From a virus, in the IMG/VR virus record IMGVR_UViG_3300030106_002919, positions 1,459 to 30,131 of that record: a stretch of 28,673 nucleotides of DNA, one strand, 5' to 3'. The position numbers were made by a program, and so were the translations under genes. Below, in pieces: positions 1,755-26,943 of this stretch (within the stretch, counting starts at the first letter, position 1; every line of letters begins with the position of its first letter). The notes under the pieces are model-generated. The model made no database searches. It was not told the origin of the DNA and was given only the letters and a program-made list of their open reading frames with translations.

Positions 1755-1904
1755 TTATTCTATTTCGCTAAACACAGCATAAACCTTAATGTCACGGCCT
1801 CTACCTTTACGTATTGTAGCTATTAAATCTTTTCTCTCTTTTACCTCTTCTTCTTTTACTTTATGATATTTAGGATTTGTACTATTTAATTTTCTTTTTT
1901 TCAT
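1755..1904 (-). CDS. Small basic protein, 49 aa, unknown function
   Basis: A short open frame fills the otherwise empty 150 bases between the thioredoxin-like gene and the M15 peptidase. Its ATG overlaps the preceding stop as TAATG (sharing base 1904), and its TAA is one base before the peptidase ATG, which is the packing seen across this block. The product begins MKKRKLNSTNPKYHKV and ends IKVYAVFSEIE. It is rich in Lys, Arg and Glu, with a charged helical middle and no membrane segment or signal peptide. I do not recognise a family. The exact fit between its neighbours and the translational coupling are the main reasons to believe it is real. Confidence 0.7.
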   Translation of the reverse strand: MKKRKLNSTNPKYHKVKEEEVKERKDLIATIRKGRGRDIKVYAVFSEIE

Positions 1905-4150: not shown

Positions 4151-7100
4151 TTAAAACTCTATTGTTGTGCCAAATGTTCTTTTCTTTTTTGATTTTATTT
4201 TTTGTTTATCGTCTACACCTATTTCCCAGTCTTGCCAACCACCCATTAAAGCAAAGCGTTCCCACAGCTCTAAATCTTGTGATACTGCTGTATTAACATT
4301 ATTTGCTTTTCTAACTAATCTATCAATAGGTATATTAGTTGCAGCTGATATAACATTAGCGCCAGCCATTAACGCTGGATTATCTATAGAAAAACCTTTT
4401 TCTATCATTTCGTCTTTTTCCCATTGAAAAGCTCTACCAGCTTGACCTAATCTTGACAGCTTAGAAGATATAGGTGGTGATATTCTAGCAAAATCTGCAG
4501 TAATTTTTTCGTATTTAGGATTATCTTTTTCAGACTCATCTATAACTCTTTTAATAATATTTTTACCAACAGAAACAAAAGCACCTGCAATACCTACACC
4601 TCTCAATAATGAGTCTAACATACCGTTAGCGGTATTAATGTATTTATCTTTTTCATCTTCTTCGTCTTCATTATCACCAAACGCTATTGCAAAAACCGCT
4701 TGTTGTAGCGCGTTAAATATTAAGTTTTGAGCTACACCGTAGTAAATAATCTTAGATATATTAGTCTTTACATCTCCTCGACGATTTTTAAGATCAGAAG
4801 CAGCTTTTTTAATTAATCTTGCATACTGCATAGGTGTATTTGCAAAAGCTAATATAATTCTACCAAGTGGACCAGCCTGTTGTTGTGATATACGATCTGG
4901 TCTACTAGACTGTTGAGACTCTTCAGCTATTTCTCTAAAATCATTAAATGCTTGCTCTTGTGCTTGCTGATCAGAAAGCCCTTGTTTTTTATAAGTGTTT
5001 ATTCTATTTCTATAAAATGTAGCGCCACCTGAAGCAATAGCAAAACTATCAGCTATTTGTGTTGGTAAAAAACCAAATTCTAATAACTTACTAACAACAC
5101 CTCTTGCACCACCTTCATTTGCCATATTAGCAATATCAGCCTCGTTAACATTTATTCTTAAACCTCTACGTCTATCAACTAAAAACTCTGAGTTCATTAA
5201 AGTCATAAAATCAGACCAAAATTGTTTTTGATTACCGTATGCTTTACCAGCTTTAAATATATTATTATCTGAAAAGTTCACAAAGTTTACAGCGGATATT
5301 GTTTGTAGTAATGCTGATCTAGTGTTAAAGAACATAATAGTACCAATACTATTTGTTAACCAATCAGTAACCCTACCTGTCATACTATCACCTGTAAAAG
5401 CTCTATTCCTACCAGTTTTCATACGCTGCAATATACCTTCCAACGCTGTTCTATAAGGCTTACCGTTTGTAGCTTCTAGTTTATTTAAATTTTTATCTGA
5501 AAATATAATATCAACATTTTGCTGCCATTGTTGTAAGTGTTTAGCTCTTTTAGTAGTACCTAAACCTCTAAGCATATCTGTAGTTATAGTGCCTCCTAAC
5601 CAACTAGACGTAGGCTCAGTATAACCTTCAGCTTTATTTATATTTATTAACTGATCACCAAATACTTTTAAATCAACATTTTTTTCTATATAATCAGTTA
5701 GCTCTTTTAAATCAGCCTTACTTAAACCAGGAATATTCATACCTTGTTTGTTCCACATGTAAACTCTTACAGCTTGTTCATTTGTAAATTCTTCACCAGG
5801 TATTTTTTTACGCAAGTTTTTAGGTACAACACCTAGTTGTTTTTTAAGCGCTTTATAGTCGTCCATTAAAGCTATACGTTCTCTTGATATTGCAGCCATA
5901 GCGCTAGCATACGGATCAAGTAAATTCTTTTTATACCAAGCCATTTGGCTATCACCTAACTTACCTTTTGATAATGTATTATATAATAACCCTACAAAGT
6001 CTTCTGCAGATGGTGGTATAAAAAATGTAAACTTACCTTTATTAGCACCAACTACTGCTGCTTTAGCTCGACTATATTCTTTTTCTGCAGCAATACCTGT
6101 TTTAGCTTCTATTATATCGTTAAAATCTCTATCAAGCTTTTTAACTCTATCACTATAAGCTAATCTAGTTTTTGATTTAACATCTAAAACTTCTAATGCG
6201 TCTTGAACTGCTTTTACATTTTTATATACATCATCTGTAAAATAAAAATCATTATAACCTTCAGCAGCCTTACCTGTAACCCAGTTAGCTTTAGCTTGAG
6301 GCGTACCGTCTTGTAAACCTGTAATATTTTTTAAAGGTATGTTAACGCCTATGCCGTCTAAAAATGCTTTTATCGAAGCTGCAGACGCTTGTGGTCTTGC
6401 TGTTAATACAAATACATCTTTATTACCAAACTTATCTATAGCTTTTTTAATTTTTGCAGCTAGTGGTCCAGGCTTACCATCAACTACTTTATTAAACTCA
6501 CTAAAATCAAAAGTTGCACCATCTTGTTCTAAAGAACTATGTTGTTTAGCAAATTCAGCTGGTGTTATTTTTTTAGTTGTACCATTAGGCATTTCGACTA
6601 TTACTTTACTTTTACTAGTAGCTAGTGTGTCGTCAAAATCAAATATACTAATACCTTTTTTAGGTGTATCTAAATTTCTAGCATTACGTAAAGCTTGATC
6701 ATGACTATTTAAATCATTTAATAATCCATCATTATTGTTTGACTTACTATACTTAGCAGTTGTTTCGTTTAAATTTTTATTTAAAACTTTAGGTTTATTT
6801 TTACTAACATTTGAGTTTATATTACCATAATTTCTTAATTCTTTTAAAGTTAAATTACCTTTAAATAAATCTCTTATTAGTTGTTTTTGAGTTTTAATAT
6901 TTATATTGCTATCATTAAAAAAATACTCAGATAACAATTGTTTAGTAGGTATATAATATTGACTATTAAGATCGATGTTAGATTCTACTAATCTTATAAC
7001 AGACAACAAACCTGGATCTAAATTTAAATTATTTTCTATAGCTGTATACATTAAATCAGGAACTGTAGACTTATAATCAACATCTAAAAGATCATTATTT

Positions 7101-10100
7101 TTTAAAGATATAAAACCTTGCATATAAGTAGCTTTTACAATCTTTGCTGCTTCATTAATGTTTCCGTCAACTACACCGCCTGTTAATATAGATATAGCTT
7201 CATTTTGAGGTTGAGTATGTTCTTCAACACCTTTAACACCCATTAATGGTTCTTTGGTGCCAGGTTTTGTTTCAAACAAAAAAGTAGGTGCATTACCCCT
7301 TAACGGTGATGTTTGAGCGTTTTGAGCAGCTAAAGCAACTTCATCTAAAAACCAAATATCATTAGAGTTGTCTTTATAATACTCATTAAAGTCTTTATAA
7401 AATTGAATTAAATCATCTAGCTTTTTTAATTCATTTTTTACATAATCAGGTTTTTTAGTGCTTTCTAACCAAGAATTTTTTATTTCTTTTTTATCAGTAT
7501 AATTAGGTTTTTTAAACGAAGCTTGTTCTTTTGATTTTCTTTTTATTATATTGTTATTCCAATTTTCTTGAACACCAAATGGTGATCTATCAACGCCAAA
7601 AGTTAAACCTTTATTTAAAAATTGTTCATATTGTGGAAACCTAGATAAAAAATTATTTGTAATTCTAGATATACCCTGTATAACTGTTTCGCCTTCAAAA
7701 GATCTAAACTTTTTTGGTAATTTTTTATTTCTATCGTATAATTTTTTAGGATCATTAGTATATCTTGCGCTAGGCGTAAAACCACTTCTTTTAGCATCTT
7801 CAATTCTACTTATATTAATATTACCAGATACTTTTTCATTAAATCTAGTTTTACTAGCGTTTTCTTTAGCTTTAGTAACACTAAACTTTATAGTAGGATC
7901 AACAATTAATCTTTGAGCAACTTTAGCTATATCTCTAGCATCAATATTAGCTCTGTTCATTGTTTCAGGAGCATAATCTCTAAACAAGCTAAAAGCAATA
8001 GCATTAACTATACCGTCTTTTCTAGTTCCTTTTAATCCACTAGGTTTACCAGTTTTAGGATTTATTGCTGGAGGATTAGCAAATTTTAAAACTTGTTCTA
8101 TTGTAGGTTTTTTTCTAGGATATTTCATAGGGCCTTGTTTTTCATTTTCTACATGAAAATCACCCTCGTCAACAGCTTTGTCTATTTGCGCTTGTGTAGT
8201 CAACCTAGTGGGTTCACCTGTGAATATTCTTTCTTCGACAGGTAGTTGACGTTCTAAAGCTACAAGTGTAGCTATTGGTAAATTTTTACCATGAAACAAT
8301 ACTTTGTAATTATCTTCTAAAACTTCATTTAAATTTTTTAATTTATTTTTTATAGTTTTAAAAGATTTTTGTTGTGAAGCATCTTTTAAATAAGTAATTA
8401 AATCTTTACTGTCAATTTCAGGAGTTACACCTTCAATTATTTCTAATGTGTTAGTTTGAAGCTCTGTGTCTAAAGCTTCATCAACAAATTGTTCGCCATC
8501 AACTCTTAAACCTTGCTTTAACTCTGATCTTGTAGTTTCTGTAGTTTGTATATCTACAGCTTCGTCAGCTACAGGTGTTCTTATAGAACCAGTTTCACCT
8601 GGTTGTATGTCTAAACTACCAACACGACCACCACCTGTTTCACGTTTATATCTATTAAAAACGTCACTAATTCTAAAATTTACTAATTCACTAATAACAA
8701 AACCGCCTAAATCATCATTTATTTCCGGGTTAAATCTTTGTATAGTACCTTCATACAACCTTTGTTTAACTTCTTGTATAAATATTTTTTTAGATTTACC
8801 AAAAACATTATCGCCTGTAACCGCATTTAAGTTTAATTGTTTATTAATTACACCATCTAATGTACTACCCACTACTAAATCCATATATACATCACCAATT
8901 ACTGTACGATCATATTCCTGTTTAGTAGTACCTTCTGGTACTAAAGCTTTTATATCATCACCTATTTCAGCTTTTATTTCATTAACTTCTTTTTTATCAA
9001 GAGTTTTCATTTCACCAGCAGTTATAGATTTTTTAACTTCAGCTGTTTGTTGTCCAGCTAAATCTACTGCTTGTTCTGTAACTCTACCTTGTTGTATGTT
9101 TTTAGAATAATCTTTTATAAAGTTATACGCTTGCTTACCATTTTCAAACTTTGCTTGTCTAAAAGGTGTAAACTGATTTATAAATGAGTTTATAGTTTCT
9201 AATATTCTTGTACCTAAGCTATCATTATATTTTATATCACCTTTAACTATTGCATCAGAAAAAACAGTAAAATATTCTTCAGCGTACTCTTCTAGTTCTT
9301 TTTGGCTACCATCTTCATTATATCTATAGTTATTATCTATACGTTGTTGAACAATGTCTAAATTACCTTCATCTCTTAACACACCTATTAAACCAGTAGC
9401 AAGTCTAACCCTAGTGTCAGCATCTGATAATTTATTATTAATAACCCTATGTAGAAGCTCGTGTGAACCTACAGATATAGCACCTACTTCAGCAGCTCTT
9501 TGATTATTTATAAATATTTTGTCACCTTGTATAAAACCATCAACGTTGGCATCTTGACCAGTGGCTTTTGTAAAATCTTGTTTGGTAGTAAACTCTTGTA
9601 TTTCAACACCTAGTTTTTCAGCGGTAGGCCTTACTGTCTCAACATTTTCTGCAACTAAACCTTCTTTGTATCTTTGTTCAGCTTGTGATCTAATATTGTT
9701 TATATCGTTTCTAGCTTTGTTTATTTTTCTTCTTATAGGTTTTGTAAAAGTTTCTTTTTCTTGCTCTGTAAACGCTTTAGAATTAACTATATCTAAAACT
9801 TGTTTACCTAAATCTTGTATATTATTTACACTTTTTTCAATACTAGATATATCTTGCTCGGTCATAGCACTGTAAGTGTTATTTCCGTTTTGTACCTCGC
9901 TAGAAATCCTTGCTTTTAAACCTTCTTGTATTCTATTTATAGTTTCAGTATCATAATCAGTTAAAGATCTTTTATGCTTTATATCTTCAAGATTAGATAT
10001 TTGTTGTATATCTTGTTGTATTTGTTTATTTACTTCAGGTGATCTTGATTCAAAAGCTGATTTTAAAGCGCTTCCACCTACAAAAATTCCTTTACCGCCA

Positions 10101-11353
10101 GCAAAACCTTGTAAAAATGTTTCAAGCCCTTCTTTTGAAAAAGCCCTATCAATAACTTCTTTTGATATTTCAGTTATACTTGCTTGTCTTTCTTTTTGTG
10201 TGCCCGCTCTTTCACCTAATAAACCATTAAATGTTTCAACAATAAATTGAGCATATTCAGTGCCGCCTTCTATTCTACCAGAATTCAACATTGAATATAA
10301 AAAGTTTTGAGCACCAGTTGTTTTAGCGTTTATAAGTTGTTGTGCTTTAGATATTCCTTTTTTTTCAAGAGCATAAGCAACAGCGCCTAAAGTAGCTGGT
10401 ATAAATACTTCAGCTTCACCATTTTTAAAAAGCTCACCTATTTCAATACCTTTTTCTTTAGCTTTATTGTTGTTATAATCTCTAACAGAAGCAGAAACCA
10501 TTTCAGAAGCTAAACCAACTCCAAAAGTACTTGCTGATATAGCCATAGAAGTACCAAAAGCTGTAACAGCGTTTGTAAAAGCAGCAACTCCACCTAAACC
10601 TTTTTCAAGTAAACCTTCTCTTTCACCTAAATCAGTAAAACCTATTGTTGGATCAATATTTAATTCTGATCTTTGTAACTCTCCTTCAATTTCTAAAAGC
10701 TTTTTTCTATTTTCTTCTGATCTTTGTCTACCCTCTTCTGTATCAAAATCAAAAGTACCAGCAAAATACCATAAATATTTAGCTCTATCGTCTACGGTTT
10801 CTAGCTGATTTATAGCGTTACCTAATGTATTCATCATGCTTTCACTAGCTGATAATTGTTCTTCACCTGTGTCTATTCTTTTTTGCCTAGCTTCTTTTTC
10901 AGCTTTTTTATCAAGCTCAACTTTTGACATACGACCAGTATAAAAATCTGTTTCACTAATAGGTTCTATAGTAGGAGGTTTACTTAATGAAGGTACAATT
11001 TCTTTTTCATATTCTTCTTTAGTATATTTACCAAAAGCTTTGCGATCTCTATTTTCATAACTTGGCACACCGGCTCCAGGACTATAATTAAAAGCAGGGT
11101 TTATAGATCTTATTAGTTCAGCTGCGGCTTGATTTTCTTTAGCTCTATCGTCAGCCATTTTATCTTCAGGATCTAACATATCTGTAGCAAATTCAGTTTG
11201 CTCCATAATAACTTGATCTGGCTCTGTCATATCAACCTCTACACCACTTCTTTCTTGAAAAAGTTCTGCACCAGGAAAATCATTTAGGAATTTTTCTTTG
11301 TTTTCAGGAGATACTTCATATATCTGACCATCAACAGAATATAATTCATTCAT
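4151..11353 (-). CDS. Giant 2400-aa multidomain (polyvalent-type) virion cargo protein: metallopeptidase plus HAD phosphatase
   Basis: Probably packed in the head and ejected into the host with the DNA. The order of visible parts is: a short leader motif (VDGQIYEVSPENKEKFL, residues 8-24); a Gly/Ala-rich hydrophobic zone at about 250-330; a zincin motif HELLH (H631, E632, H635) preceded by GDKIFINN and followed by EEYAEEYF, whose Glu near 692-693 could be the third zinc ligand; a segment at about 870-930 faintly like sigma factor region 2 (RFNPEINDDLGGF, then GSLDIQPGE); a HAD domain with motif I FDFDDT (D1572, D1574, T1576), motif II LTARP (T1651) and the acidic motif FTDD (D1707, D1708); and a C-terminal region from about M2007 (FFNTRSALLQTISAVNF) with further hydrophobic helices to about 2235, resembling the large polyvalent-protein-associated regions of phage proteins. 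There is no lytic transglycosylase motif. It follows the 618-aa gene within the late block. The enzyme motifs are directly visible; the delivery role is inferred. Confidence 0.8.
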   Translation of the reverse strand: MNELYSVDGQIYEVSPENKEKFLNDFPGAELFQERSGVEVDMTEPDQVIMEQTEFATDMLDPEDKMADDRAKENQAAAELIRSINPAFNYSPGAGVPSYENRDRKAFGKYTKEEYEKEIVPSLSKPPTIEPISETDFYTGRMSKVELDKKAEKEARQKRIDTGEEQLSASESMMNTLGNAINQLETVDDRAKYLWYFAGTFDFDTEEGRQRSEENRKKLLEIEGELQRSELNIDPTIGFTDLGEREGLLEKGLGGVAAFTNAVTAFGTSMAISASTFGVGLASEMVSASVRDYNNNKAKEKGIEIGELFKNGEAEVFIPATLGAVAYALEKKGISKAQQLINAKTTGAQNFLYSMLNSGRIEGGTEYAQFIVETFNGLLGERAGTQKERQASITEISKEVIDRAFSKEGLETFLQGFAGGKGIFVGGSALKSAFESRSPEVNKQIQQDIQQISNLEDIKHKRSLTDYDTETINRIQEGLKARISSEVQNGNNTYSAMTEQDISSIEKSVNNIQDLGKQVLDIVNSKAFTEQEKETFTKPIRRKINKARNDINNIRSQAEQRYKEGLVAENVETVRPTAEKLGVEIQEFTTKQDFTKATGQDANVDGFIQGDKIFINNQRAAEVGAISVGSHELLHRVINNKLSDADTRVRLATGLIGVLRDEGNLDIVQQRIDNNYRYNEDGSQKELEEYAEEYFTVFSDAIVKGDIKYNDSLGTRILETINSFINQFTPFRQAKFENGKQAYNFIKDYSKNIQQGRVTEQAVDLAGQQTAEVKKSITAGEMKTLDKKEVNEIKAEIGDDIKALVPEGTTKQEYDRTVIGDVYMDLVVGSTLDGVINKQLNLNAVTGDNVFGKSKKIFIQEVKQRLYEGTIQRFNPEINDDLGGFVISELVNFRISDVFNRYKRETGGGRVGSLDIQPGETGSIRTPVADEAVDIQTTETTRSELKQGLRVDGEQFVDEALDTELQTNTLEIIEGVTPEIDSKDLITYLKDASQQKSFKTIKNKLKNLNEVLEDNYKVLFHGKNLPIATLVALERQLPVEERIFTGEPTRLTTQAQIDKAVDEGDFHVENEKQGPMKYPRKKPTIEQVLKFANPPAINPKTGKPSGLKGTRKDGIVNAIAFSLFRDYAPETMNRANIDARDIAKVAQRLIVDPTIKFSVTKAKENASKTRFNEKVSGNINISRIEDAKRSGFTPSARYTNDPKKLYDRNKKLPKKFRSFEGETVIQGISRITNNFLSRFPQYEQFLNKGLTFGVDRSPFGVQENWNNNIIKRKSKEQASFKKPNYTDKKEIKNSWLESTKKPDYVKNELKKLDDLIQFYKDFNEYYKDNSNDIWFLDEVALAAQNAQTSPLRGNAPTFLFETKPGTKEPLMGVKGVEEHTQPQNEAISILTGGVVDGNINEAAKIVKATYMQGFISLKNNDLLDVDYKSTVPDLMYTAIENNLNLDPGLLSVIRLVESNIDLNSQYYIPTKQLLSEYFFNDSNINIKTQKQLIRDLFKGNLTLKELRNYGNINSNVSKNKPKVLNKNLNETTAKYSKSNNNDGLLNDLNSHDQALRNARNLDTPKKGISIFDFDDTLATSKSKVIVEMPNGTTKKITPAEFAKQHSSLEQDGATFDFSEFNKVVDGKPGPLAAKIKKAIDKFGNKDVFVLTARPQASAASIKAFLDGIGVNIPLKNITGLQDGTPQAKANWVTGKAAEGYNDFYFTDDVYKNVKAVQDALEVLDVKSKTRLAYSDRVKKLDRDFNDIIEAKTGIAAEKEYSRAKAAVVGANKGKFTFFIPPSAEDFVGLLYNTLSKGKLGDSQMAWYKKNLLDPYASAMAAISRERIALMDDYKALKKQLGVVPKNLRKKIPGEEFTNEQAVRVYMWNKQGMNIPGLSKADLKELTDYIEKNVDLKVFGDQLININKAEGYTEPTSSWLGGTITTDMLRGLGTTKRAKHLQQWQQNVDIIFSDKNLNKLEATNGKPYRTALEGILQRMKTGRNRAFTGDSMTGRVTDWLTNSIGTIMFFNTRSALLQTISAVNFVNFSDNNIFKAGKAYGNQKQFWSDFMTLMNSEFLVDRRRGLRINVNEADIANMANEGGARGVVSKLLEFGFLPTQIADSFAIASGGATFYRNRINTYKKQGLSDQQAQEQAFNDFREIAEESQQSSRPDRISQQQAGPLGRIILAFANTPMQYARLIKKAASDLKNRRGDVKTNISKIIYYGVAQNLIFNALQQAVFAIAFGDNEDEEDEKDKYINTANGMLDSLLRGVGIAGAFVSVGKNIIKRVIDESEKDNPKYEKITADFARISPPISSKLSRLGQAGRAFQWEKDEMIEKGFSIDNPALMAGANVISAATNIPIDRLVRKANNVNTAVSQDLELWERFALMGGWQDWEIGVDDKQKIKSKKKRTFGTTIEF

Positions 11354-11354
11354 A

Positions 11355-13211
11355 CTAACTTGGTTTTTTTACGTATGATTTATCTACTACTTGTACTTGA
11401 TCACCAGCTGATTGAACACCATACTCAACACCTATTCCAGGCGTTTTAGCTATATTCATAAGACCAGTTGATTGAAAAGGATCTTGAACAGTGCTTACAT
11501 CTCCACCTGATAAAAACAAGCTTTGTGCGTAGTTTATAGCTCTAGCTTGATCAACATTGCTACCAAATGAGTCTCTAGCATAAATACCCATAGCACCCAA
11601 TATAGTACCATCAAATCCAGCAACAGGTTCAAATTTACCGCCTTTTGCAGGTACTTTAAACACAACGTTTTCTTTACCTCCAACTGTTCCTGAAACCGCA
11701 GCATCAAAATCATCTGCTGTTACCATTTCTGATTTCTTTTTAATATCTTTATTTGTGCTTTCAACCCACCTGTCTCTTAATTGGTTTTTATTACTTAATA
11801 GTTCTTCTTTTGTAAAGTAAAAATCACCACTTTTACTAGATTTAGTCATTAAATCAACAAATCTACTTGGATCAACTGTTTGTTTAGCAAATATATCACC
11901 ACTAGCTCCTTCAAAAGCTTGAGTATCTACAAGAGATTTAAATGAAGTATATAAAGAGTTACCAGCTATAGAATTACCTTTATCAGGACCATCTTTTATA
12001 ACTGTATCTTTTTGATACTGTACAACGTTTCTTGATAACGCTCTACCGTCTTCGCCTCTTATATAACCAGTATTACCATTTACAACTTTAAATTCTTCTT
12101 TAGCCTGATCTTGTAGTAGAATTAACTTTTGTTCATCGCTTAATTTTAAATTAACTATATCAGAAGCATTTTCAACACCTAATTGATCTAACATTTCTCT
12201 AGTAGGTGTAAAAGAACCATCTTTATATTTACTACTTAATTGTGACCAAGCTGATTCATATATAGCGTCGTTTTCACCACGGTATCTGTCAATAGCAAAC
12301 TTATTAGCAAACTCATCTGTTTTACTATACCAATCACTTCTTATATATTTAGCTGCGTTTTTAGTTGTTTGAACTTGCGCGCCACCTGGTAATTCAAGAC
12401 TAACGCTTGCGCCATCAGTATTATAAGTTGCTTTTACAGTAGTATAACCTGGCGTTGAACCATCTTTACCTATTGCTTTTTGAGTATCAAGACCTAAATT
12501 AGATTTAACATTAAAGTTATCGCTAAGCCATTGATCTGTCATTGCACTAGCGTTTATAAACTGTCCATTAACTTCAAAACCATATTGAGTAGTACCTTTT
12601 AATCTACCTTCACCAGGTCTTGAAGATATTTTTACAGCGCTAGGGTTTTCTGAATTAATTTTAGCAAACTGATCTATTGTTAAACTACTATTTTTACCAT
12701 CAGCTCCAGGTAAAAACTTATTACTTACATTTACATCGTAAACATCTGGGTCACTAACGTATTGTAAATATTTTTGAAAACTAGAACCTTCAGCACCAAT
12801 AGCTTGTTTATATCCATTTATATGATTTTGTATTGCAGCTTTTCCTCTTGTATCAGCTTTTTCATATTGTTTTTGTAAAGCAGCTAGCTCTGTATTTGCC
12901 CATGTTTGATTAATTGTTGGGTTTACTTCTATAGAGTAAGTTTTACCAAAGTCAGGAGAGTTAGGATCATTATTCTTTAAAAAATCATTTTTACCTAACT
13001 CAAAAGCTGTATTAAAGCCTTGTAATTCTTCTTCTGTTTTTTCTTCTTCTTCAGGTATTCTAAATGTAGACGCTACACCTCTGCTAAAAGCAGTATAATC
13101 TTCTATGCCTAACCTAGGGTTTTCATACGTGCCTCCTGTTGTTGTTCTAGCGCCGCTACCTAAATTAGCGCTCATATAAGGACTTCTGTTTGTTCTTGGT
13201 TTTGTTGCCAT
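11355..13211 (-). CDS. Virion-associated protein, 618 aa, unknown function (probable ejected cargo)
   Basis: A soluble-looking protein without a signal peptide or membrane segment. The N-terminus is low in structure (Thr/Gly/Arg-rich, then an EEEEKTEEE acidic patch near 54-63). The rest mixes charged helices with Gly/Ser-rich stretches. I recognise no domain. It sits between the Ala/Gln-rich internal virion protein (stop-to-start gap 3 bases) and the 2400-aa cargo protein. In podoviruses this place after the nozzle gene is normally held by a set of internal or ejection proteins, such as T7 gp14-gp15-gp16 or the crAss-like cargo proteins. By position and size it is the analogue of the middle member, but no sequence evidence confirms homology. 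It ends in TAG. Confidence 0.6.
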   Translation of the reverse strand: MATKPRTNRSPYMSANLGSGARTTTGGTYENPRLGIEDYTAFSRGVASTFRIPEEEEKTEEELQGFNTAFELGKNDFLKNNDPNSPDFGKTYSIEVNPTINQTWANTELAALQKQYEKADTRGKAAIQNHINGYKQAIGAEGSSFQKYLQYVSDPDVYDVNVSNKFLPGADGKNSSLTIDQFAKINSENPSAVKISSRPGEGRLKGTTQYGFEVNGQFINASAMTDQWLSDNFNVKSNLGLDTQKAIGKDGSTPGYTTVKATYNTDGASVSLELPGGAQVQTTKNAAKYIRSDWYSKTDEFANKFAIDRYRGENDAIYESAWSQLSSKYKDGSFTPTREMLDQLGVENASDIVNLKLSDEQKLILLQDQAKEEFKVVNGNTGYIRGEDGRALSRNVVQYQKDTVIKDGPDKGNSIAGNSLYTSFKSLVDTQAFEGASGDIFAKQTVDPSRFVDLMTKSSKSGDFYFTKEELLSNKNQLRDRWVESTNKDIKKKSEMVTADDFDAAVSGTVGGKENVVFKVPAKGGKFEPVAGFDGTILGAMGIYARDSFGSNVDQARAINYAQSLFLSGGDVSTVQDPFQSTGLMNIAKTPGIGVEYGVQSAGDQVQVVDKSYVKKPS

Positions 13212-13214
13212 AAT

Positions 13215-14177
13215 TTAATTTATTACTGGTATTTGCATCATTGTATTATAATATTCATCACTAATACCAATTGAAGCATAAGGATTTGTAGGTACATTAG
13301 AGAATACATTTGCAACTTGTTCTTGTCCTGGAGGTAAATTTCCAAAATTAGGTGCTGTGTTTATATATTCTTGAGCTCTACTAGATACCATGTTTCCATA
13401 TAGATTATTAAAATTTTTACTAGTTTCTGTAGTTAAATCAACATTAGCGCCGCTAGGAAGAGTTATAGGATTCTCTTTTTTAGCAAAAGGTCCACTTTTT
13501 CCAAAACCACCTTGTGCAGCAAAAGTACCTAAAGCACCCACAGCTTGACCTATCATCTGTGAGCTTTGCGCTCCATATGCCGCCGCTTGTTGATTAAATG
13601 AGCTTTCTAAACTAGCTTGTCTATTTAACTGTTGCATTTCTCTTCTTTCTTGTGCTTGGAACGAAGCCATTTCAGCTCTTTGTCTCATCTGCGCAGCTTG
13701 TACTTCACCTTGCGCTCTTAGCTGTGCGTTTCTAGCTTCTTGTTGTTCTATACTAGCAGAAACACCTCTTTTACTTTGTGCAGCAGCTCTTGCTAAAGCA
13801 GTAGCACCACCAGCACTAGCTCCTGTAGCTCTTAATGTATCTAGTGTACTAGCTAAAGATATATCAGCTTGTTCAGCTTGTATTTCAGATGCTCTAGTAG
13901 CCACTTGTAAATTAGAGTAAGGATTTTCAAACTCTTGACCAAATGTAGGTATGTCTTGCCTGTTAGCCTCTAGCTCCATACGTTGTCCAGCGGCTGCTCT
14001 TTCTTTTCTTTGAGCCCGTCTTTTTGCAGCACCTGCAGATACACCACCAAATATACCGCTAAGAACACTAACACCCGCTGAAATTATTGCAGCAGTAGCT
14101 AAACCACCAGTTGGTTCTGCAAAAACTGGTATTGTTACAAAAAACAAACCTAAAAATAAATATAATCTTTCTTCCAT
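13215..14177 (-). CDS. Ala/Gln-rich internal virion protein (T7 gp14-like architecture)
   Basis: A 320-residue protein. Residues 5-20 form a hydrophobic stretch ending VFAEP that looks like a cleavable signal peptide. It is followed by a second small-residue hydrophobic helix (about 26-50, ATAAIISAGVSVLSGIFGG) and a basic KRRAQRKER patch at 52-60. From about 95 to 205 it is a long Ala/Gln/Arg helical region typical of internal virion proteins that assemble in the head and then insert into the host envelope. The C-terminus is Asn/Pro/Gly-rich. Downstream of the nozzle gene and upstream of two larger putative cargo proteins, it fits the smallest ejection protein that forms the outer-membrane channel. 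If the signal-like N-terminus is really translated, it is unusual for a capsid-packed protein. An internal start could remove it, but I see no better start with support. Confidence 0.65.
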   Translation of the reverse strand: MEERLYLFLGLFFVTIPVFAEPTGGLATAAIISAGVSVLSGIFGGVSAGAAKRRAQRKERAAAGQRMELEANRQDIPTFGQEFENPYSNLQVATRASEIQAEQADISLASTLDTLRATGASAGGATALARAAAQSKRGVSASIEQQEARNAQLRAQGEVQAAQMRQRAEMASFQAQERREMQQLNRQASLESSFNQQAAAYGAQSSQMIGQAVGALGTFAAQGGFGKSGPFAKKENPITLPSGANVDLTTETSKNFNNLYGNMVSSRAQEYINTAPNFGNLPPGQEQVANVFSNVPTNPYASIGISDEYYNTMMQIPVIN

Positions 14178-14179
14178 AA

Positions 14180-17100
14180 TTATTGTGATGAATATACAGT
14201 TTCACTGTTTACAGCGTAAAGTTCACCTTTACTTACAGCTGAAGCTACTGCTTCACTTGGTTTCCAGTACTGCATTTTTACTTTATTAAAATATCCTTTT
14301 ACACCTGATAAATCAACACCCACTACTTGATTTAAAGCAGTTGTTGTTGTATTATTTCTTATATGCCCATAATACTTGTTTTCTTTGTTTATAAAGTTTA
14401 CAGGTATCGATAATGAAGACACTGTTGTGTCATTGCTTAAAACAGGAAAAGCAGAGTGTATATCTGTTTCTGCTGAAGCCATTTTCCAACCGCTACTACC
14501 TTCATACTCTATTGTATGAAAGTTTTTAACCACAGCTGCTTGATCGTTAAATACAAACTCTATATTAGATGGATCTGTATAGGCAGATTTATAAAAGACA
14601 CATCTTTGAACATCATCGCTGTAATGTTTGTATAAGTTTTGTAAATTATAAGTGTAAAACTCATTACTTAAACTAAACCCAAATGTAGGCTTATATGTAT
14701 AAAACGAAACCCAACCACTTGATGATTCATCAAATGATAAAGTTGAATATGTATCTTTTGATATTGTTGTAGAGTCAAATGATGTTCCGTATTCAGGATT
14801 ATAAGTAGAAGCTACACTATTTTTGTTTTGTAATGAAACAACGTATTTATTTTTTTGCTCGTCATACATACCATATACTCTGTCCGCGTTTTGTAAGTTA
14901 TCTCTAAAAAAACTACGCATACCATTATTTGATATAGGTGTTAGTCCGTCTTGTGATAACCTCATTATAGTACCTCTACTTTTATCAGAAAAATATTTTC
15001 TACCACCGTATACTGCAAAACTTTCAGGATTTTTACTTATTCCATATTTACCACCAAAACTACCAACTTGACCTATAACAACTTTAGAAGCTGTTGTTAG
15101 TGGTTGACCCTCTTGAGTAAATATAGCGTCTTTATCTATCAACGCTCTACTAACTTTATTTTCTTGAAATATTATTAAATTAGTATCTTCAGCATAAAGC
15201 TTTTGTATACTACCATTTATAACATCAACAGCTCTAGTAATACTTTCACCAATAGAAAATTGATTTGTTTCGTTTAGTTTTGTTTTTGAATTAAAAACAC
15301 CAGAGTGTATTAAAGCATTACTTCTAATTCTTTGCGCGTATTTTTCGTCTATAATATGAGCTTTAACACCTAGATCAACAGAGTCATCATTAAAACCTCC
15401 TTTAATTCTTGATTCTTCAATATGAAAAACACCTGGTTTATTGACTAAATCTGTACCACCACCAGATAATATAAATGTGTTATAATATTTAATTGGAACT
15501 ACTTTTGCTGCAACATCGTAAAAAAGATCATCTACACCATCTGCATCAGTATCAAAACCTATTTGATCTATAACGCTTCTTATTTCACTAGCTAAACCGC
15601 AAGTTGAAGATTCAAAAAATATATCTAAATTAGATTTAACAGGATTAGTTTCTAAAACAGTTAAACCAGTTTTAACAGCAATAGGTTGTTCTTCAATATT
15701 TTGTATAATTAAACTAAAACCTTCATCAATATCAACATCATGAGATAGTTTTAATCTTTGAAAATATTTTATTTCACCGTTAACTATTCTAGATTTTGTT
15801 TCTACAGCTTCTATTAATATAGGATCATACAATCCCATCATTTGATTACCACTAGTATATATACCTAGTTGTGTTAATTTTTGCTTAATTCCATCAGGAA
15901 AAATTTTTCTATCACAATGTATAGACATTCTAGTTCCGGCATCATTAAACTCTATTTCATCAACAATAGGGTATCTTACAGTGCTGTGGTCACCGTGTTC
16001 AACTTCTTGAGAAGTAGTAAATAAAAACTGTGTATCTGCAAAATCATCTATACTAGATACACCATAATATCTAAAACCCGCTGCGGTTTCAGGATTATCA
16101 TCTTCATCTTTATGTCTATAATCAATAAATTGACCAACTCTAGCTTTTGTTATTTCATTTCTAAAACTAGTTTCATCAGCAATAACACTTTTACTTTCCC
16201 AATCACCTCCAATGCTAGTAGTAGTAGTGCCTTGCTCATCATTATCTATTCTAATTTTTTGAGCAAGCTTACCCATTCTTTCAGGAACAATATCCTCTAT
16301 TGTTAAATTATTTTGTTCAGCTAAAACTGAATTAGCTAACGCGTCAAATCTTCTTTGAGCAATTTGATGTCCAACTCTAATATAAGGATTTATTGTATTT
16401 CCATCACCAACTAAAACATATGAATTATCATTTTCATTGCTTTCAAAAACAGGAACTGTTATACTATATAAAACATCGTTATCATTACTATTATTTAAAG
16501 ACTTTAGTTGTGCAACAAGAGGATTTTTTTTAGCTGTGATAAAATCATGAACTCTATCTTTATCTCTATCACCACCAGCGTCTGTTAATAAACCTTGTTC
16601 TCTAGCAGTGCCAACAGTCATAACTTCTAAAAAATCTTGATCAATACCCATCACAGATATATTACTTTCTTCACCAGAACTTTTAACAACTTTAGGAAAC
16701 AACAAAGTATCAGAACCCGCTACACCTTCTCTAATTTCATCTACTTCATTAACATCTCTTGGTACTTTATTTATATTGTCTCCATATAAACTAATCCAAG
16801 AAAAACCTAGTATAGCGTCACTATTATTAGCTTCATTATTCCAGTTATCAGCTGGGTGATTTACATATAAGTTGTAATATTCTTGTTCTTGTTGTTTTAC
16901 AACTATTTTGTAGCTATACCAACCATAAGGATTATATGATTCACTTTCTATATCTCCATTGTATAAATCTTCAGAATTAATAGCTTCATTAAAAACTATA
17001 GAAAGCTCTTTACCATAAATATTTTTATTAATCCCACTCCAACTATAAAATTTTTCTCCAAAATCTTCACTAGTAACATCAAGTTCTGTATATGTTTCAG

Positions 17101-18610
17101 ATAAATCACTAGTAACATATTCTACTTTTATCGTGTCTATTGCTTGTTCTATTACAAGATTTGGATCTAAATCATCTTCTGTAGCAGTTGACAATATAAC
17201 AGGTGATTGTCTACCAAAAATATCGGATAACACAACTCCAACTTGATATTCTCTATTTTGCTTAATAGAGTGTAACGCGTGGGTTTTAGCATTATTTTGG
17301 CTTTTACTACTATTTACTCTTATCACATAATTCAAACCTGTTTTACCTTTACTATCTTTTGGTAAATTATAATTTTCTGTAAAATTACCGTATATAACTC
17401 TATTACCTGAAATTTCTTGAGCTTTAGCCCTTAAAGGCACTTGATCAAAAACCCTAGTTATTTGTTTATCTTCTAAAATTTTATAAGGTTTTTCAGATTT
17501 ATAAGTGTATTTATAAAGTTTTTTATAATATTGAACACTATCTAAGCCTTCATCAGAAAAACCTTGAGCAAAACTTTCAATATTTTCAATAAAAGATTCT
17601 AAGACAACGCCGTTATCATCTGATACATCTATTTCTTTAATAATTTTAACAACATCTTGATCAGATTCTTTAACTAGTATTTCTATTTTTATTATTCTAA
17701 CTTCGTTTTGCCAAGTAGCATTTTGATTAATTTCATTATCAATAGATGGTAAAGGTATTCTAAGATCTACTTTATTATAATGATTTTTCATTAAATCTAC
17801 AGTAGTTTTAGTATAAACATCTTGAACATCTGTTATGTCTCTGTCTGTAGTTAACTTATTGTCTATAAAACCTGTATTTAAAGGTTTAAACACTATTTGA
17901 GTAAAAGGAGCAATAGTACTATACTCACCATCTTCATATTGATACCTGTATGAAAATCTAACAAATTTATCTTTTAAATAGTCAGATGTTATACTTTCAT
18001 CATAAGCTAGTGTAGTACCGTCACCATTACCATCAACATCATTTAATATAGGCGCTAAATAAGGAGATACTTTAGCAACTGATATTTGTATTTCTTTAAC
18101 ATAATAAGAATTATTAGCAATAGCCTTTGCTACATTTATTTTTCTAGGTTGATTATAATTATCTGTCCAAAATAATAAATCATCAATTAAATTCACACCT
18201 GTAATTAAATGGTTTTTGCTAAAATTTAAAAAATGACCTTGCACTATTATTTTAGCCTCTGCAGACGTATCATTTAAATCAGCCATTAATATCTGACAGG
18301 TATTAGTAGAATCAGCTCTAGACATTGTTTTTATATCCCCATCATCTCCAGTAAAATCTGTAATAAACCAAAAAACTCTTTTATTAAGAACATCAGCGCA
18401 ATAACCAATTGTTTCCATATCACCTGTAATACCAGGCATAGGTACAGCCAATATATTACCTTGTATGTTTTCAACAGCTCCTACATCAGAATCTTCTGAT
18501 TGCGTAATTAATATATTTTGTGCCTCACGGTATTCACCTTTTGGCACAAGCCTTTCATCAAGGTCTTTATTCATTTTACCTCGTAAAAAGCTATTTTGAA
18601 TTTTAGGCAT
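14180..18610 (-). CDS. Tail nozzle / muzzle-like stabilisation protein, 1476 aa
   Basis: The N-terminus, with GKMNKDLDERLVPKGEYREA at 11-30 then DVGAVENIQGN at 42-52, is a signature I associate with the nozzle or stabilisation proteins of crAss-like and related podoviruses (functional equivalent of T7 gp12 or P22 gp10). The following region has repeated Trp/Tyr/Asn-Asp strand motifs, such as LLFWTDNYNQPRKINVA at about 145-161, consistent with the beta-propeller of that family. The middle is long and beta-rich. Later parts include YGGRKYFSDKSRGTIMRLSQDG, again propeller-like. It would form the distal end of the short tail and gate DNA exit. The gene lies between the ring/adaptor genes and the internal virion protein genes, the expected position. 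No separate receptor-binding or fibre gene is visible in the window, so host contact might involve this protein or proteins encoded elsewhere. Confidence 0.78.
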   Translation of the reverse strand: MPKIQNSFLRGKMNKDLDERLVPKGEYREAQNILITQSEDSDVGAVENIQGNILAVPMPGITGDMETIGYCADVLNKRVFWFITDFTGDDGDIKTMSRADSTNTCQILMADLNDTSAEAKIIVQGHFLNFSKNHLITGVNLIDDLLFWTDNYNQPRKINVAKAIANNSYYVKEIQISVAKVSPYLAPILNDVDGNGDGTTLAYDESITSDYLKDKFVRFSYRYQYEDGEYSTIAPFTQIVFKPLNTGFIDNKLTTDRDITDVQDVYTKTTVDLMKNHYNKVDLRIPLPSIDNEINQNATWQNEVRIIKIEILVKESDQDVVKIIKEIDVSDDNGVVLESFIENIESFAQGFSDEGLDSVQYYKKLYKYTYKSEKPYKILEDKQITRVFDQVPLRAKAQEISGNRVIYGNFTENYNLPKDSKGKTGLNYVIRVNSSKSQNNAKTHALHSIKQNREYQVGVVLSDIFGRQSPVILSTATEDDLDPNLVIEQAIDTIKVEYVTSDLSETYTELDVTSEDFGEKFYSWSGINKNIYGKELSIVFNEAINSEDLYNGDIESESYNPYGWYSYKIVVKQQEQEYYNLYVNHPADNWNNEANNSDAILGFSWISLYGDNINKVPRDVNEVDEIREGVAGSDTLLFPKVVKSSGEESNISVMGIDQDFLEVMTVGTAREQGLLTDAGGDRDKDRVHDFITAKKNPLVAQLKSLNNSNDNDVLYSITVPVFESNENDNSYVLVGDGNTINPYIRVGHQIAQRRFDALANSVLAEQNNLTIEDIVPERMGKLAQKIRIDNDEQGTTTTSIGGDWESKSVIADETSFRNEITKARVGQFIDYRHKDEDDNPETAAGFRYYGVSSIDDFADTQFLFTTSQEVEHGDHSTVRYPIVDEIEFNDAGTRMSIHCDRKIFPDGIKQKLTQLGIYTSGNQMMGLYDPILIEAVETKSRIVNGEIKYFQRLKLSHDVDIDEGFSLIIQNIEEQPIAVKTGLTVLETNPVKSNLDIFFESSTCGLASEIRSVIDQIGFDTDADGVDDLFYDVAAKVVPIKYYNTFILSGGGTDLVNKPGVFHIEESRIKGGFNDDSVDLGVKAHIIDEKYAQRIRSNALIHSGVFNSKTKLNETNQFSIGESITRAVDVINGSIQKLYAEDTNLIIFQENKVSRALIDKDAIFTQEGQPLTTASKVVIGQVGSFGGKYGISKNPESFAVYGGRKYFSDKSRGTIMRLSQDGLTPISNNGMRSFFRDNLQNADRVYGMYDEQKNKYVVSLQNKNSVASTYNPEYGTSFDSTTISKDTYSTLSFDESSSGWVSFYTYKPTFGFSLSNEFYTYNLQNLYKHYSDDVQRCVFYKSAYTDPSNIEFVFNDQAAVVKNFHTIEYEGSSGWKMASAETDIHSAFPVLSNDTTVSSLSIPVNFINKENKYYGHIRNNTTTTALNQVVGVDLSGVKGYFNKVKMQYWKPSEAVASAVSKGELYAVNSETVYSSQ

Positions 18611-21831: not shown

Positions 21832-23259
21832 TTATGATTCTTTTAACAGAATAAAGTTATTAGCAGCTTGTACAACTAAACATCTTTCAGATAAATAGTG
21901 TACTTCCATATAATCGTCTCCGATATATGACGCACCACCAACAGATCCAGTTACCCAAGACTTCATTCTTCTATCATCAGTTTGAGAAGCTCTATATCTT
22001 ACGTGTAAGAAAGGTCTTTTAATGTTTCTTCCTAATCCTTCATCATATACAGATGAAACACCAGCAGGAATTAAAACACCAGAAATATCTCCAAAACCAC
22101 CTCTACCAGTAGCATCGTTTAAGTATCTCCAATCAGACTTATAGAAGTCATAAGAACCTCTTCTAAGACCTGAGAAACCTAAGTTTAATGCCATATCAGC
22201 AGAATTTTCAAATACTCCGAAAGAAGCACCACCTTGATAGTTAGAGTTTAATCCAGCCATCATGTCATCAAATGTAAGAGCTAAATCTCTATTTACATAT
22301 AACATGTTTTCCTCGATTGCACCTTGCTTGTCAAGATTTTTAAGTACTAAATCAAAATCAGCTAAAGAAGCTAAATCTTCAAATACATTACCTCTTGTTT
22401 CGATAGCTTCAAATAAACCTTCACTACCAAAGTTCTCACCAGCAATACCCATTGCAGTATCAGCAACAGAAGAACCAGGAACACCTTTTACAGCTTCAAT
22501 CATAGTCATCTCAACGTAATCTTCAAATCTTAATCTAGTTTCACTAGCAGATTTCATGTACCAAGAATAACCTGTTTGTCCAGACTCATCAATTGTTTCA
22601 ACCCAACCGATTTGAGCAGTATCAGAACCAGAAATTTTAAAGTGATCTTTAATGATCATTGGTCTGTTATCAAATTTAGTAAAGCTTGGCTTAAGTTCTC
22701 CTACCATAGAAGCAGAACCTTTTGCAAACTCAGAACCAAATACAAAAACATTTACACCTAAATCACTAGATCCTAATACAGTTGTCATGTCAGCTGTCTT
22801 ATACGGTTGTGCAGTAATAACTTGACCAGATGATGCAGAAACTCTACACACAAGTGTGTTAAGTCCTGTTGCAGCATCAGTAACAATTACAGTAGCACCC
22901 ACTCTTACAGAGTTAGTATAATCACTACCTAGTGTTATTGTGTTTGCATCTACATCAGCTTGAGCTGTTTGGTTTCCAGTTTTGTGTTTGTAAGCAATAT
23001 GTAATCTGTTTTGCTCAGACCATACTACTTGATCAGAGGCCATAGGCATTTCTGCCCCTACCATAGCCAAAAATCCATTAATTGTACGATTTCCGTATCT
23101 TTCGATTTCTTGTTCGTACAACTCAGGTAGGTATTGTTGCGCCCAACCTTGGTTAGCTGTATTAGCTAGGTCCAAATAGTTGTTCGCGCTTACGACTTGT
23201 GATGGCGATCCTGTTAAAGAATAGTCACCAGCTAGTCCTAAAGACGTATTAAATCCCAT
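21832..23259 (-). CDS. Major capsid protein (HK97-type, crAss-like lineage)
   Basis: A 475-residue protein, the usual size for crAss-like major capsid proteins. The N-terminal arm (about 1-60) carries NYLDLANTANQGWAQQYLPE and YEQEIERYGNRTINGFLAM; then comes a beta-rich insertion (about 90-175, ANTITLGSDYTNSVRVGAT). The long helix and P-domain region contain EDYVEMTMIEAVKGVPG, FEAIETRGNVFEDLASLADF and LYVNRDLALTFDDMMAGLNS. The C-terminal A-domain part includes SDWRYLNDATGRGGFG and ends YLSERCLVVQAANNFILL. There is no protease cleavage signal I can point to. Codons look more GC-rich than neighbouring genes, as expected for very high expression. Its leader is A/T only (ACTTAAAATTTAAACAAA-ATG), without Shine-Dalgarno. 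It follows the scaffold-like gene and precedes a small structural gene and a hairpin. Confidence 0.88.
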   Translation of the reverse strand: MGFNTSLGLAGDYSLTGSPSQVVSANNYLDLANTANQGWAQQYLPELYEQEIERYGNRTINGFLAMVGAEMPMASDQVVWSEQNRLHIAYKHKTGNQTAQADVDANTITLGSDYTNSVRVGATVIVTDAATGLNTLVCRVSASSGQVITAQPYKTADMTTVLGSSDLGVNVFVFGSEFAKGSASMVGELKPSFTKFDNRPMIIKDHFKISGSDTAQIGWVETIDESGQTGYSWYMKSASETRLRFEDYVEMTMIEAVKGVPGSSVADTAMGIAGENFGSEGLFEAIETRGNVFEDLASLADFDLVLKNLDKQGAIEENMLYVNRDLALTFDDMMAGLNSNYQGGASFGVFENSADMALNLGFSGLRRGSYDFYKSDWRYLNDATGRGGFGDISGVLIPAGVSSVYDEGLGRNIKRPFLHVRYRASQTDDRRMKSWVTGSVGGASYIGDDYMEVHYLSERCLVVQAANNFILLKES

Positions 23260-24531: not shown

Positions 24532-26943
24532 TTATCTAGGCTCAAATTGCTCTAGTCCAAAACCTCCTAAATTATCAAATCCAGCTGATTCAAAATTTTT
24601 TGGTCCTGTTTCTTTTTTCCTTTGATCAATCATCTCGCTTTGCTGAGTTGCTTGTATCTTAGTTCTTTCGTCTTTACGATCTTCTTTTTGTTTTTCTCTT
24701 TGTTTTAAAACATCAGCTTCAGCTGTTTTTAATTTCATATTCATTTGAAACTCTAGCTCCATTAACTCTTTTTTAATTTGAGCTTCTCTTTCCATTTTTT
24801 GCATTGCAAGCTGTGCTTTAACTTGTTCTATCTGCGCATCTGTTTGAGCTAATGCTTGAGTTTTTTGCATTTCAGCTGCAGCAGCTCTTTCAGCAGCAGC
24901 CGCATTAGCTTCAGCTTGTTTCTGTATATTTTGCTGTGCTATTTGTTGGTCTAAAGCTTGTTTAGCTTTTCTTCTTATTTTTAATAATTGATTAGCTAGT
25001 TTTATATTTCTAACCTCACGTATATCAATAGCATCTTCCAAGTTTATACTATTTTGTTGTAAAGCCATTTGAATATTGTTTTCTAATCTAGCTTTTTCTT
25101 CTTCATCTGGCGCTAATTCTAAGAATATACCAAAATCATGCAAATGTAAGTTAGCCATTTCTTCTAGTGTACCAACATTAAATTTACCTAAAGATTTTAT
25201 AAATGCCTCTTTTGTTGGTGAATATTCTATCACATCAGATATTCTCATTGCTATACACTCTGCAGTAGAAAGCGTTATGTACAAACTACTTTGTAATATG
25301 TGTCTTGTAGCAGTATTACTATTAGCAGCAGCCATTTTTTGTATACCTACTAAAGCGTCTTTATCAGGCATTGTACCATCTCTAGCTTCATTTAACCCAG
25401 TTACATCACGCATCATTTGTAAATAGTAATTATAAGTTTGTATTAAACTTTGTATTTTACCACCTTTTGTGCTAGAGTTTATTTCAGTAACTGGTCTTAT
25501 ACCTCTATTCATATCACCATCTTGCGTCATTGATCTACCAATAACACTACCAGTTTGGAAATACATATTTAAAGCTTCTTGCGGGTTATAGTTTGTACCA
25601 TTACCTAAATCTATTTCAGCTAAAGCATCTGCATCTAAATAAACACCGTCTGGTACCATTTTAGACATTACTTGTTGAAGTTTTAAGTGTGTAAGCTGTA
25701 TCATATCTGCAAAACCAGTTATGCGGCTTACTAAACTTTCAATACGACCCTCATACATACGTGGTGCACACATACTATAACTCATTACTGCTTTAGTAGT
25801 ATCAGCTTTAGGTCTTATCATATTTTTCTTTAACTCCCATTTTAAAACTTTATTTGAACCACTACCTAATATTTTAGCGCCTTCATATATAACTTCAATA
25901 ACTCTTTCTACCTTTTCAAAATCTTCATTTTTAGGAGGATTAAAACCACCGTCTTTTTTAATAGCTCTTTGACCACCTGTAGCTGTATTTTTTACTTTAT
26001 AAACCTCACTCATATAAGTTTTATATTCAAAATATAAAACACTTATAGAGTTATTATCATCTCCTTTTTTATTAACAACTGTGTTTTTACCATAAGAGGC
26101 AGAGCTTGTTCTATATTGCTCTATCTCTTCATCTGTTAATTCAGGAAATTGTTTTTTAAGTTCGTTAGCATAAACATCTTTTACTTCACCTACATAATAT
26201 ATATCATCAAAATAAGGTGAGTCAGTGTAAGAATAAACTAAATCAGCTGGATCAACATATTCTATTTTAATACCTTCTGACTTATTAAATGAGTTTTTTA
26301 TAGCACCAATACCTAAAGTAACTAAATCATGATTTACTCTTTTAGATACATACTCATACTTATTAGCATCTAACACGCTATTAATAGCTTCTTCCTCAGC
26401 TATTTCAATACTTTGCTTATAATCAAGCTGCATGTGTAGCTGTAATTCTTCGTTAGACTGTGGTAGTTTTGACTGATCAGTTTTATACATGTCTATACCA
26501 AATTGTTGAGAAACTTGATCGTTAAAACCTTTAGCCTGCATATCTGATACTATATTTTGAACATAATCAGTTCTTTCTTTTATAGCAGCTGGATCTTGTG
26601 AGTATGCTTTAATATCGTAAGATCTATCAGCCATACCATTTACAACTATATCTACAAATTTAGGTATAATAGGAACAGGCTTCCAGTCTAAATTAAGATA
26701 TGATAAATCACCGTTAATAGATAATTCATCTTTGTATTTTTTAATTGACTGCTCGCCTCTTGCATATAGTCTTAACGCGTGAAAAGATTCTTTAAAAGTT
26801 GAATACCTATTTGAGTTTTCATTATTACTAAACCACTCGTGCTCAATAGCTGAACCAACTTTAGCGCCATATTCAGCGCTCATCTTTTCTTCATCACTAA
26901 CAGCTTGGCTAGGAAAAGAGGTTTTAATACCTTTTTTAATCAT
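24532..26943 (-). CDS. Portal protein (crAss-like type)
   Basis: An 803-residue portal, matching the roughly 800-residue size of crAss-like portals. The N-terminal hallmark LRLYARGEQSIKKYK lies at 58-72, followed by LNLDWKPVPIIPKFVDIVVN at 83-102 and NGMADRSYD. The central clip/stem/wing area contains NHDLVTLGIGAIKNSF, SYSMCAPRMYEGRIESLVSR and IQTYNYYLQMMRDVTGLNEA, the last being the usual portal-like segment before the helical crown. From about 650 to 775 it is a long coiled coil rich in Ala, Gln, Lys and Glu (many QKQAEANAAAAERA-type heptads). It forms the dodecameric ring at the capsid vertex through which terminase pumps DNA. It starts 2 bases after the terL stop and ends in TAA, 24 bases before the scaffold-like gene. 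Confidence 0.9.
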   Translation of the reverse strand: MIKKGIKTSFPSQAVSDEEKMSAEYGAKVGSAIEHEWFSNNENSNRYSTFKESFHALRLYARGEQSIKKYKDELSINGDLSYLNLDWKPVPIIPKFVDIVVNGMADRSYDIKAYSQDPAAIKERTDYVQNIVSDMQAKGFNDQVSQQFGIDMYKTDQSKLPQSNEELQLHMQLDYKQSIEIAEEEAINSVLDANKYEYVSKRVNHDLVTLGIGAIKNSFNKSEGIKIEYVDPADLVYSYTDSPYFDDIYYVGEVKDVYANELKKQFPELTDEEIEQYRTSSASYGKNTVVNKKGDDNNSISVLYFEYKTYMSEVYKVKNTATGGQRAIKKDGGFNPPKNEDFEKVERVIEVIYEGAKILGSGSNKVLKWELKKNMIRPKADTTKAVMSYSMCAPRMYEGRIESLVSRITGFADMIQLTHLKLQQVMSKMVPDGVYLDADALAEIDLGNGTNYNPQEALNMYFQTGSVIGRSMTQDGDMNRGIRPVTEINSSTKGGKIQSLIQTYNYYLQMMRDVTGLNEARDGTMPDKDALVGIQKMAAANSNTATRHILQSSLYITLSTAECIAMRISDVIEYSPTKEAFIKSLGKFNVGTLEEMANLHLHDFGIFLELAPDEEEKARLENNIQMALQQNSINLEDAIDIREVRNIKLANQLLKIRRKAKQALDQQIAQQNIQKQAEANAAAAERAAAAEMQKTQALAQTDAQIEQVKAQLAMQKMEREAQIKKELMELEFQMNMKLKTAEADVLKQREKQKEDRKDERTKIQATQQSEMIDQRKKETGPKNFESAGFDNLGGFGLEQFEPR

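Follow-up and report, generated by a model that had tools for sequence, protein, structure and literature searches.

The 2,400-aa protein encoded at positions 4151-11353 of the window probably serves as polyvalent cargo that is packaged by a short-tailed phage with a crass-type muzzle; its plan would resemble that of the virion RNA polymerase of phage N4 minus the polymerase. The window is the whole stretch of 28,673 nucleotides that was analysed, and it belongs to an IMG/VR virus record of 30,131 bases from an uncultured marine phage. We regard the giant as a new form of polyvalent cargo protein of the N4-vRNAP-like kind, in which one component is new and unproven.

Genomic setting and relatives

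The giant is encoded on the minus strand by a single uninterrupted open reading frame from ATG to stop. An earlier note on this DNA had given its limits exactly and left the strand unstated. Residue r lies at 11353-3(r-1), counting downward. The minus-strand order is terminase, portal, probable scaffold, structural protein, two ring/tail proteins, muzzle, two further proteins (320 aa, then 618 aa) and finally the giant. The nozzle had thus rightly been placed before the giant, with the 320-aa and 618-aa genes sitting between them. The main genes are the following:

26946..28649, minus strand: terminase large subunit (phrog_6681, E = 1.1e-128)
24532..26943, minus strand: portal protein (phrog_6547, E = 6.3e-151; relatives)
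21832..23259, minus strand: virion structural protein in the position of the major capsid protein (phrog_13704, E = 3.9e-97)
14180..18610, minus strand: crass-type muzzle (nozzle) protein (PF25731, E = 6.5e-19; PF25729, E = 1.1e-7)
13215..14177, minus strand: 320-aa protein, related in sequence to phi38:1 gp99, which in phi40:1 is a virion protein (MS/MS)
11355..13211, minus strand: 618-aa protein, second putative cargo/ejection protein (by position; syntenic with phi40:1 gp100, MS/MS)
4151..11353, minus strand: putative giant cargo protein, 2,400 aa (open frame; at least 568 IMG/VR relatives)

The terminase match covers profile positions 180-750, so the start of the gene may fall outside the window. 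The portal has relatives in Callevirus, Elemovirus, Baltivirus, Gundelvirus and Maribacter phage Panino, whose hosts are Flavobacteria. A Bacteroidota host, as previously suggested, is plausible because the portal relatives infect Flavobacterium, Cellulophaga, Maribacter and Tenacibaculum. Just 8 sequence relatives were found for the 618-aa protein.

At least 568 relatives of the giant were confirmed in IMG/VR. The whole giant gave no tblastn match among 50,697 phage records, and Pfam and PHROGs yielded nothing usable on the window copy. The first two scans provided 93 giants; in 86 (median 2,732 aa) both termini lie within the contig. This set of 86 is partly redundant, with some near-duplicates, and two of its frames look split. 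In L072 (3847-12574), the two frames overlap by 41 bases and together align to the giant of L079 nearly end to end at ~94-95%; since both frames align almost throughout, a frameshift is equally likely. In L054 (3790-12637), both frames repeat the same stretch and the split may therefore be an assembly error. The split giants were considered as a sign of processing and set aside, as an assembly error or a frameshift may explain them. Prophage occurrence was limited to six contigs in metagenome-assembled genomes, which are probably mis-binned phage contigs.

Conserved domains in a mosaic chain

The features of the giant, from its N-terminus to its C-terminus, are:

9719..11353, minus strand: residues 1-545, variable N-terminal part, probable ejection region (few relatives; mild hydropathy at 256-281; family-level link to phi38:1 gp101)
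9029..9718, minus strand: residues 546-775, zincin metallopeptidase domain (invariant H/E/H/E; AF2 model)
9449..9463, minus strand: residues 631-635, HELLH motif (sequence)
9275..9277, minus strand: E693, predicted third zinc ligand (invariant in 74 sequences)
8465..8914, minus strand: residues 814-963, sigma-70 region-2-like module with the motif FNPEINDDLGGF...SLD at 874-916 (family profile matches sigma factors)
7874..8452, minus strand: residues 968-1160, module M2 (22 relatives)
6689..7270, minus strand: residues 1362-1555, unnamed, enzyme-like module M4 (E1378, H1379 and R1454 invariant, Q1412 nearly invariant)
6149..6664, minus strand: residues 1564-1735, HAD phosphatase domain (invariant catalytic motifs in 75 sequences; polynucleotide kinase family match in relatives; fold matches below significance)
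6626..6640, minus strand: D1572-T1576 (DFDDT), HAD motif I (sequence)
4154..6148, minus strand: residues 1736-2400 (the last 665), all-helical core and most conserved part (AF2; fold matches to large polyvalent and ART-PolyVal proteins)

The earlier note had missed the sigma-like module, M4 with its invariant E/H/R, the polyvalent-type core and the mosaic exchange. The enzyme residues that it had listed were all found in place, namely HELLH at 631-635 as well as D1572/D1574/T1576, T1651 and D1707-D1708.

Coverage of the window giant by its relatives steps up and down along the chain. Few relatives reach residues 1-450, while residues 560-775 with the zincin are common to ~60 of 92 relatives, the middle modules to 7-21 each and residues 1550-2400 with the HAD domain and the core to at least 90 of 92. 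Individual copies show the same pattern: L001 is 76% identical over window residues 1-1175, L002 is 85% identical over 1513-2382 without any match over 1-1512, and L009 has kept the core and is devoid of the HAD domain. Judged from these alignments, the giant is plainly a mosaic with exchange of modules.

The zincin domain is supported as real and conserved. Exactly one HExxH motif was found in each of 78 of the 86 complete relatives, with 0.35 relatives expected from shuffled sequences, and it had not been among the search criteria for relatives; L072 has one additional HExxH in its upstream frame. The motif lies 855-1286 residues ahead of the HAD motif wherever both are present. Across 74 diverse relatives with 12-62% identity to the window copy, H631, E632, H635 and E693 were the sole invariant columns of the zincin region, the second Glu following 62 residues past the motif start. 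The AF2 model of the domain (block pLDDT mostly >90) consists of a helix (model positions 2-35), strands at 39-43, 61-64 and 67-71, a helix with HELLH (83-94) and a helix with E693 (142-159). Structure prediction of domain-sized slices had been proposed, and for this region it returned a zincin layout at high confidence with the strand and helix order of the polyvalent MPTase, i.e. an N-terminal helix, a three-stranded sheet, the HExxH helix and the Glu helix (PMC5512222). In searches of the PDB, the best zinc protease reached E = 0.44 with the zincin profile, and the zincin PPEP-3 was among the weak, non-significant matches of the whole-chain fold search (E 5.7-6.8).

The HAD domain is likewise supported as real and conserved. 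D1572, D1574, T1576, T1651, K1688, D1707 and D1708 were invariant in 75 relatives and form motifs I (DxDxT), II (T/S), III (K) and IV (DD). The motif was present in 77 of the 86 complete relatives, a figure that is biased upward because the pattern EGYNDFY partly drove the search for relatives; in the 75 aligned sequences this pattern does not account for the invariance across all these columns. Three relatives matched phrog_415, a polynucleotide kinase family, at best with E = 3.7e-5. NCBIfam gave HAD-IIIC alone on members with HAD and core (E = 0.03, 2 members). Whole-chain PDB fold searches returned no significant match for the giant; HAD phosphatases had the top probabilities, 0.75 for the Nir2 C-terminal domain and 0.66 for class C acid phosphatases, with E-values that were not significant.

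M4 looks like an unnamed enzyme by its residue conservation, as E1378, H1379 and R1454, and nearly Q1412, are kept in 36 aligned sequences. The motif 'EEH..PAS...N.Q' had suggested an HNH nuclease, a reading that was dropped since the modelled order of helices and strands disagrees with it and nothing came from the profile search. The M2 profile gave no informative match against the PDB.

The core model was compared with predicted viral structures (BFVD). Direct relatives came first, among them one of Virus NIOZ-UU157, followed by many phage proteins annotated as ART-PolyVal-like, PolyVal ADP-ribosyltransferase, large polyvalent protein associated and MuF. These matches span most of the model with low TM-scores, which points to a general architecture in common and not to a close fold. 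No named LPD or PolyVal model of Pfam matched the giant or its relatives by sequence. The helical core and the zincin place the giant in the polyvalent class by architecture; it also carries several domains in one chain, and terminase and portal are encoded upstream. The polyvalent-protein theme raised earlier is supported.

The earlier reading held up for the most part, except for the membrane-active ends, which were not supported. The best 19-residue Kyte-Doolittle means were 1.26 (263-281) and 1.36 (2249-2267), which is mildly hydrophobic and below usual transmembrane values. Among 77 relatives, a mean >1.5 was reached in the N-terminal zone by 27 and in the C-terminal zone by 6. A membrane-pore reading of the chain ends was rejected on account of this low hydropathy.

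The sigma-like module and transcription

Between the zincin and the HAD domain, 178-492 residues past HExxH, ~76 giants carry a module with the pattern F-D-P-x-K-G-x-F-S-T-Y followed by S-I/L-D. Profile A3 of this module was searched against 177,635 PDB sequences and retrieved RpoD first (E = 0.0042). Most of its 34 matches were sigma factors, and Kelch proteins with short alignments were also among them. With a second module profile, the top match was again a sigma factor (E = 0.015), and unrelated proteins came after it; PDB profile searches with three other modules returned scattered molecules. When a sigma HMM was run over whole giants, 17 of 18 best matches fell inside the module (~5% expected), with low scores. 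The resemblance is thus weak but specific at the level of the family profile, and we rate a relationship to sigma region 2 slightly above an even chance. That the module binds RNA polymerase is less probable than the relationship itself.

A coincidental likeness has a chance a little short of even. The module would then be no more than a common helical linker or a bundle that binds DNA, with an F-D-P-x-G-x-F-S-T-Y-like stretch by chance, which would suit the weak scores. No giant exceeded the Pfam cut-off for sigma region 2; Sigma70_r2 on the L054 giant (E = 3.9e-4 per genome) was below it. Sigma region 4 of Pfam was absent from the 14 giants scanned, and the PDB fold search with the window model gave no sigma fold. 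The window copy is assigned to the module family with an i-E of 8.7e-6 and is not significant against sigma factors by itself; its best match to the sigma HMM lies outside the module. In hhalign, the module reached P = 3.5e-5 against seven sigma factors and the zincin profile P = 0.3, but these pairwise P-values are selected because the motif was spotted by eye before testing. Against coincidence stand the two unbiased PDB profile searches, in which a sigma factor ranked first for this module and not for the others, and the concentration of HMM matches in the module.

The phages of the long relatives appear to depend on the host polymerase, as no phage RNA polymerase was found in them. Thirteen relatives of 51-77 kb gave no match to the RNA polymerase beta subunit, and Pfam detected no single-subunit RNAP domain in the window giant or its scanned relatives. 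A search of the 13 long records with PF00940 gave no match, and the control was likewise silent. A separate sigma factor frame of 250-274 aa is present in 11 of the 13. Stand-alone sigma factors were seen e.g. in L104 (994-1746, minus strand) and L105-L109, with 251-256 aa in the six that were read; the one scanned with Pfam matched region 2 above the cut-off and region 4 weakly.

N4-like phages bring in a polymerase by injection; the protein injected by T4 is an ADP-ribosyltransferase, which redirects the host polymerase. Binding of the module to host RNA polymerase, if real, would add a third route for starting transcription, present in a large family of uncultured marine phages. A tentative and rather doubtful proposal is a sigma mimic delivered with the virion: the module in the giant, freed or positioned by the neighbouring zincin, would capture the host RNA polymerase on behalf of the incoming DNA while the separate phage sigma factor has yet to be made, in phages without a recognised polymerase. 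The module could reveal how such phages seize transcription at entry.

Probable packaging, proposed mechanism and known systems

The cassette from muzzle to giant of Callevirus phi40:1 (gp97-gp101) has been annotated from MS/MS proteomics of virions. The gp101 of phi38:1 is 99.9% identical to that of phi40:1 and contains a 240-residue module that L088, L091, L099 and other relatives of the window giant carry ahead of their zincin. Given the synteny with phi40:1 gp101 and the module shared by the phi38:1 copy and the family, it is likely by analogy that the giant is packed in the particle, as had been suggested earlier. The N-terminal part of the window giant showed no direct match to cultured virion proteins and the reciprocal test was negative; its iterated match to phi38:1 gp101 may be drift. 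Both the giant and gp101 are encoded at the end of the muzzle cassette. The latter differs by its 1,691 aa, the lack of HExxH and HAD motifs and an unmatched HAD-core region. Elemovirus gp18 (3,694 aa) and the ctfjg026 giant (3,859 aa) are also syntenic, with one and two HExxH, respectively; both differ from the window giant in having no HAD motif and no core similarity detected by HMM. The ctfjg026 giant (L022, 741-12320, minus strand) has two HEFGH motifs and is annotated as 'reticulocyte binding/rhoptry protein', a label that is very probably wrong.

The closest working model, by analogy, is N4 gp50, in which a flexible N-terminal ejection part is followed by the HExxH subdomain C1 and the large helical C2 (PMC12633501). 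Both proteins are single huge chains with HExxH and an all-helical C-terminal part. N4 gp50 is ejected through the short tail; for the window giant, ejection is proposed. The giant differs in having no recognised polymerase domain and in its order, with the zincin ahead of the variable middle and the HAD domain ahead of the helical core. With the polyvalent proteins of Iyer et al. 2017 (PMC5512222), it has in common the very large size, the multiple domains, the location beside portal and terminase genes, the zincin MPTase with HExxH and a helix Glu, and a core that resembles ART-PolyVal- and LPD-bearing proteins in its general fold architecture. A text search of that paper found no mention of a sigma factor, a phosphatase or a crass-like phage. 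PhicrAss001, which has a related muzzle, carries gp45-gp50 as cargo, with several large, helical proteins located in the capsid and the tail (PMC10172136), and by this description they resemble the giant. PhicrAss001 has RNA-polymerase-associated giants, whereas the 13 long relatives of the window phage gave no beta-subunit match.

As packaged polyvalent cargo, the giant would rely on the variable N-terminal part and the conserved helical core for loading into the head and for passage, partly unfolded, through the tail; its modules would refold inside the cell. The zincin may process the chain into functional fragments or target a host protein, and the HAD domain may strip phosphates from nucleotides or nucleic-acid ends. 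The sigma-like module might contact host RNA polymerase and lead to immediate transcription of the incoming DNA. Relative to N4 gp50, the polymerase would have been replaced by exchangeable modules, possibly with a sigma mimic among them. The 'host take-over at time zero' of the earlier note remains an inference. Exchangeable modules framed by nearly fixed zincin and HAD slots make the family a good test case for the zincin self-processing proposed in 2017.

It is unlikely that the giant is instead a core or channel protein of the virion that builds an ejection tube outside the cytoplasm, with the zincin and HAD domains acting in the envelope or on the particle (e.g. in maturation or in clearing periplasmic obstacles). 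Podovirus ejection proteins do form trans-envelope channels (PMC10172136, PMC12633501), the phi40:1 counterpart is a virion protein and mildly hydrophobic stretches lie near both chain ends. However, there is no clear membrane helix, the size, the mosaic middle modules and the intact enzyme sites suit delivered effectors better, and the nucleotide-type HAD domain and the sigma-like module suggest the cytoplasm. Highly improbable is a late product acting in the producing cell, e.g. in lysis or nucleotide salvage, as M15 peptidase and small membrane protein genes directly following the giant might suggest, since the giant is encoded last in the head-tail cassette, its syntenic counterpart is present in phi40:1 virions and its helical core resembles polyvalent phage proteins.

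The remaining part of the window holds lysis-type genes for the M15 peptidase (1292-1753) and a 95-aa membrane protein (2302-2589), and among them a thioredoxin-like protein with a hydrophobic N-terminus (1904-2302, minus strand). On the opposite strand, a ribonucleotide reductase barrel region (3-1265, plus strand; PF02867, E = 3e-79) is cut by the window edge. Two genes past the giant, a 399-aa protein (2591-3790, minus strand) has a signal peptide and an outer-membrane-like sequence and gave no match in the Pfam scan. A role as an envelope protein encoded by the phage, e.g. in superinfection exclusion, is possible, and proteins of 390-405 aa occupy a comparable place in many relatives.
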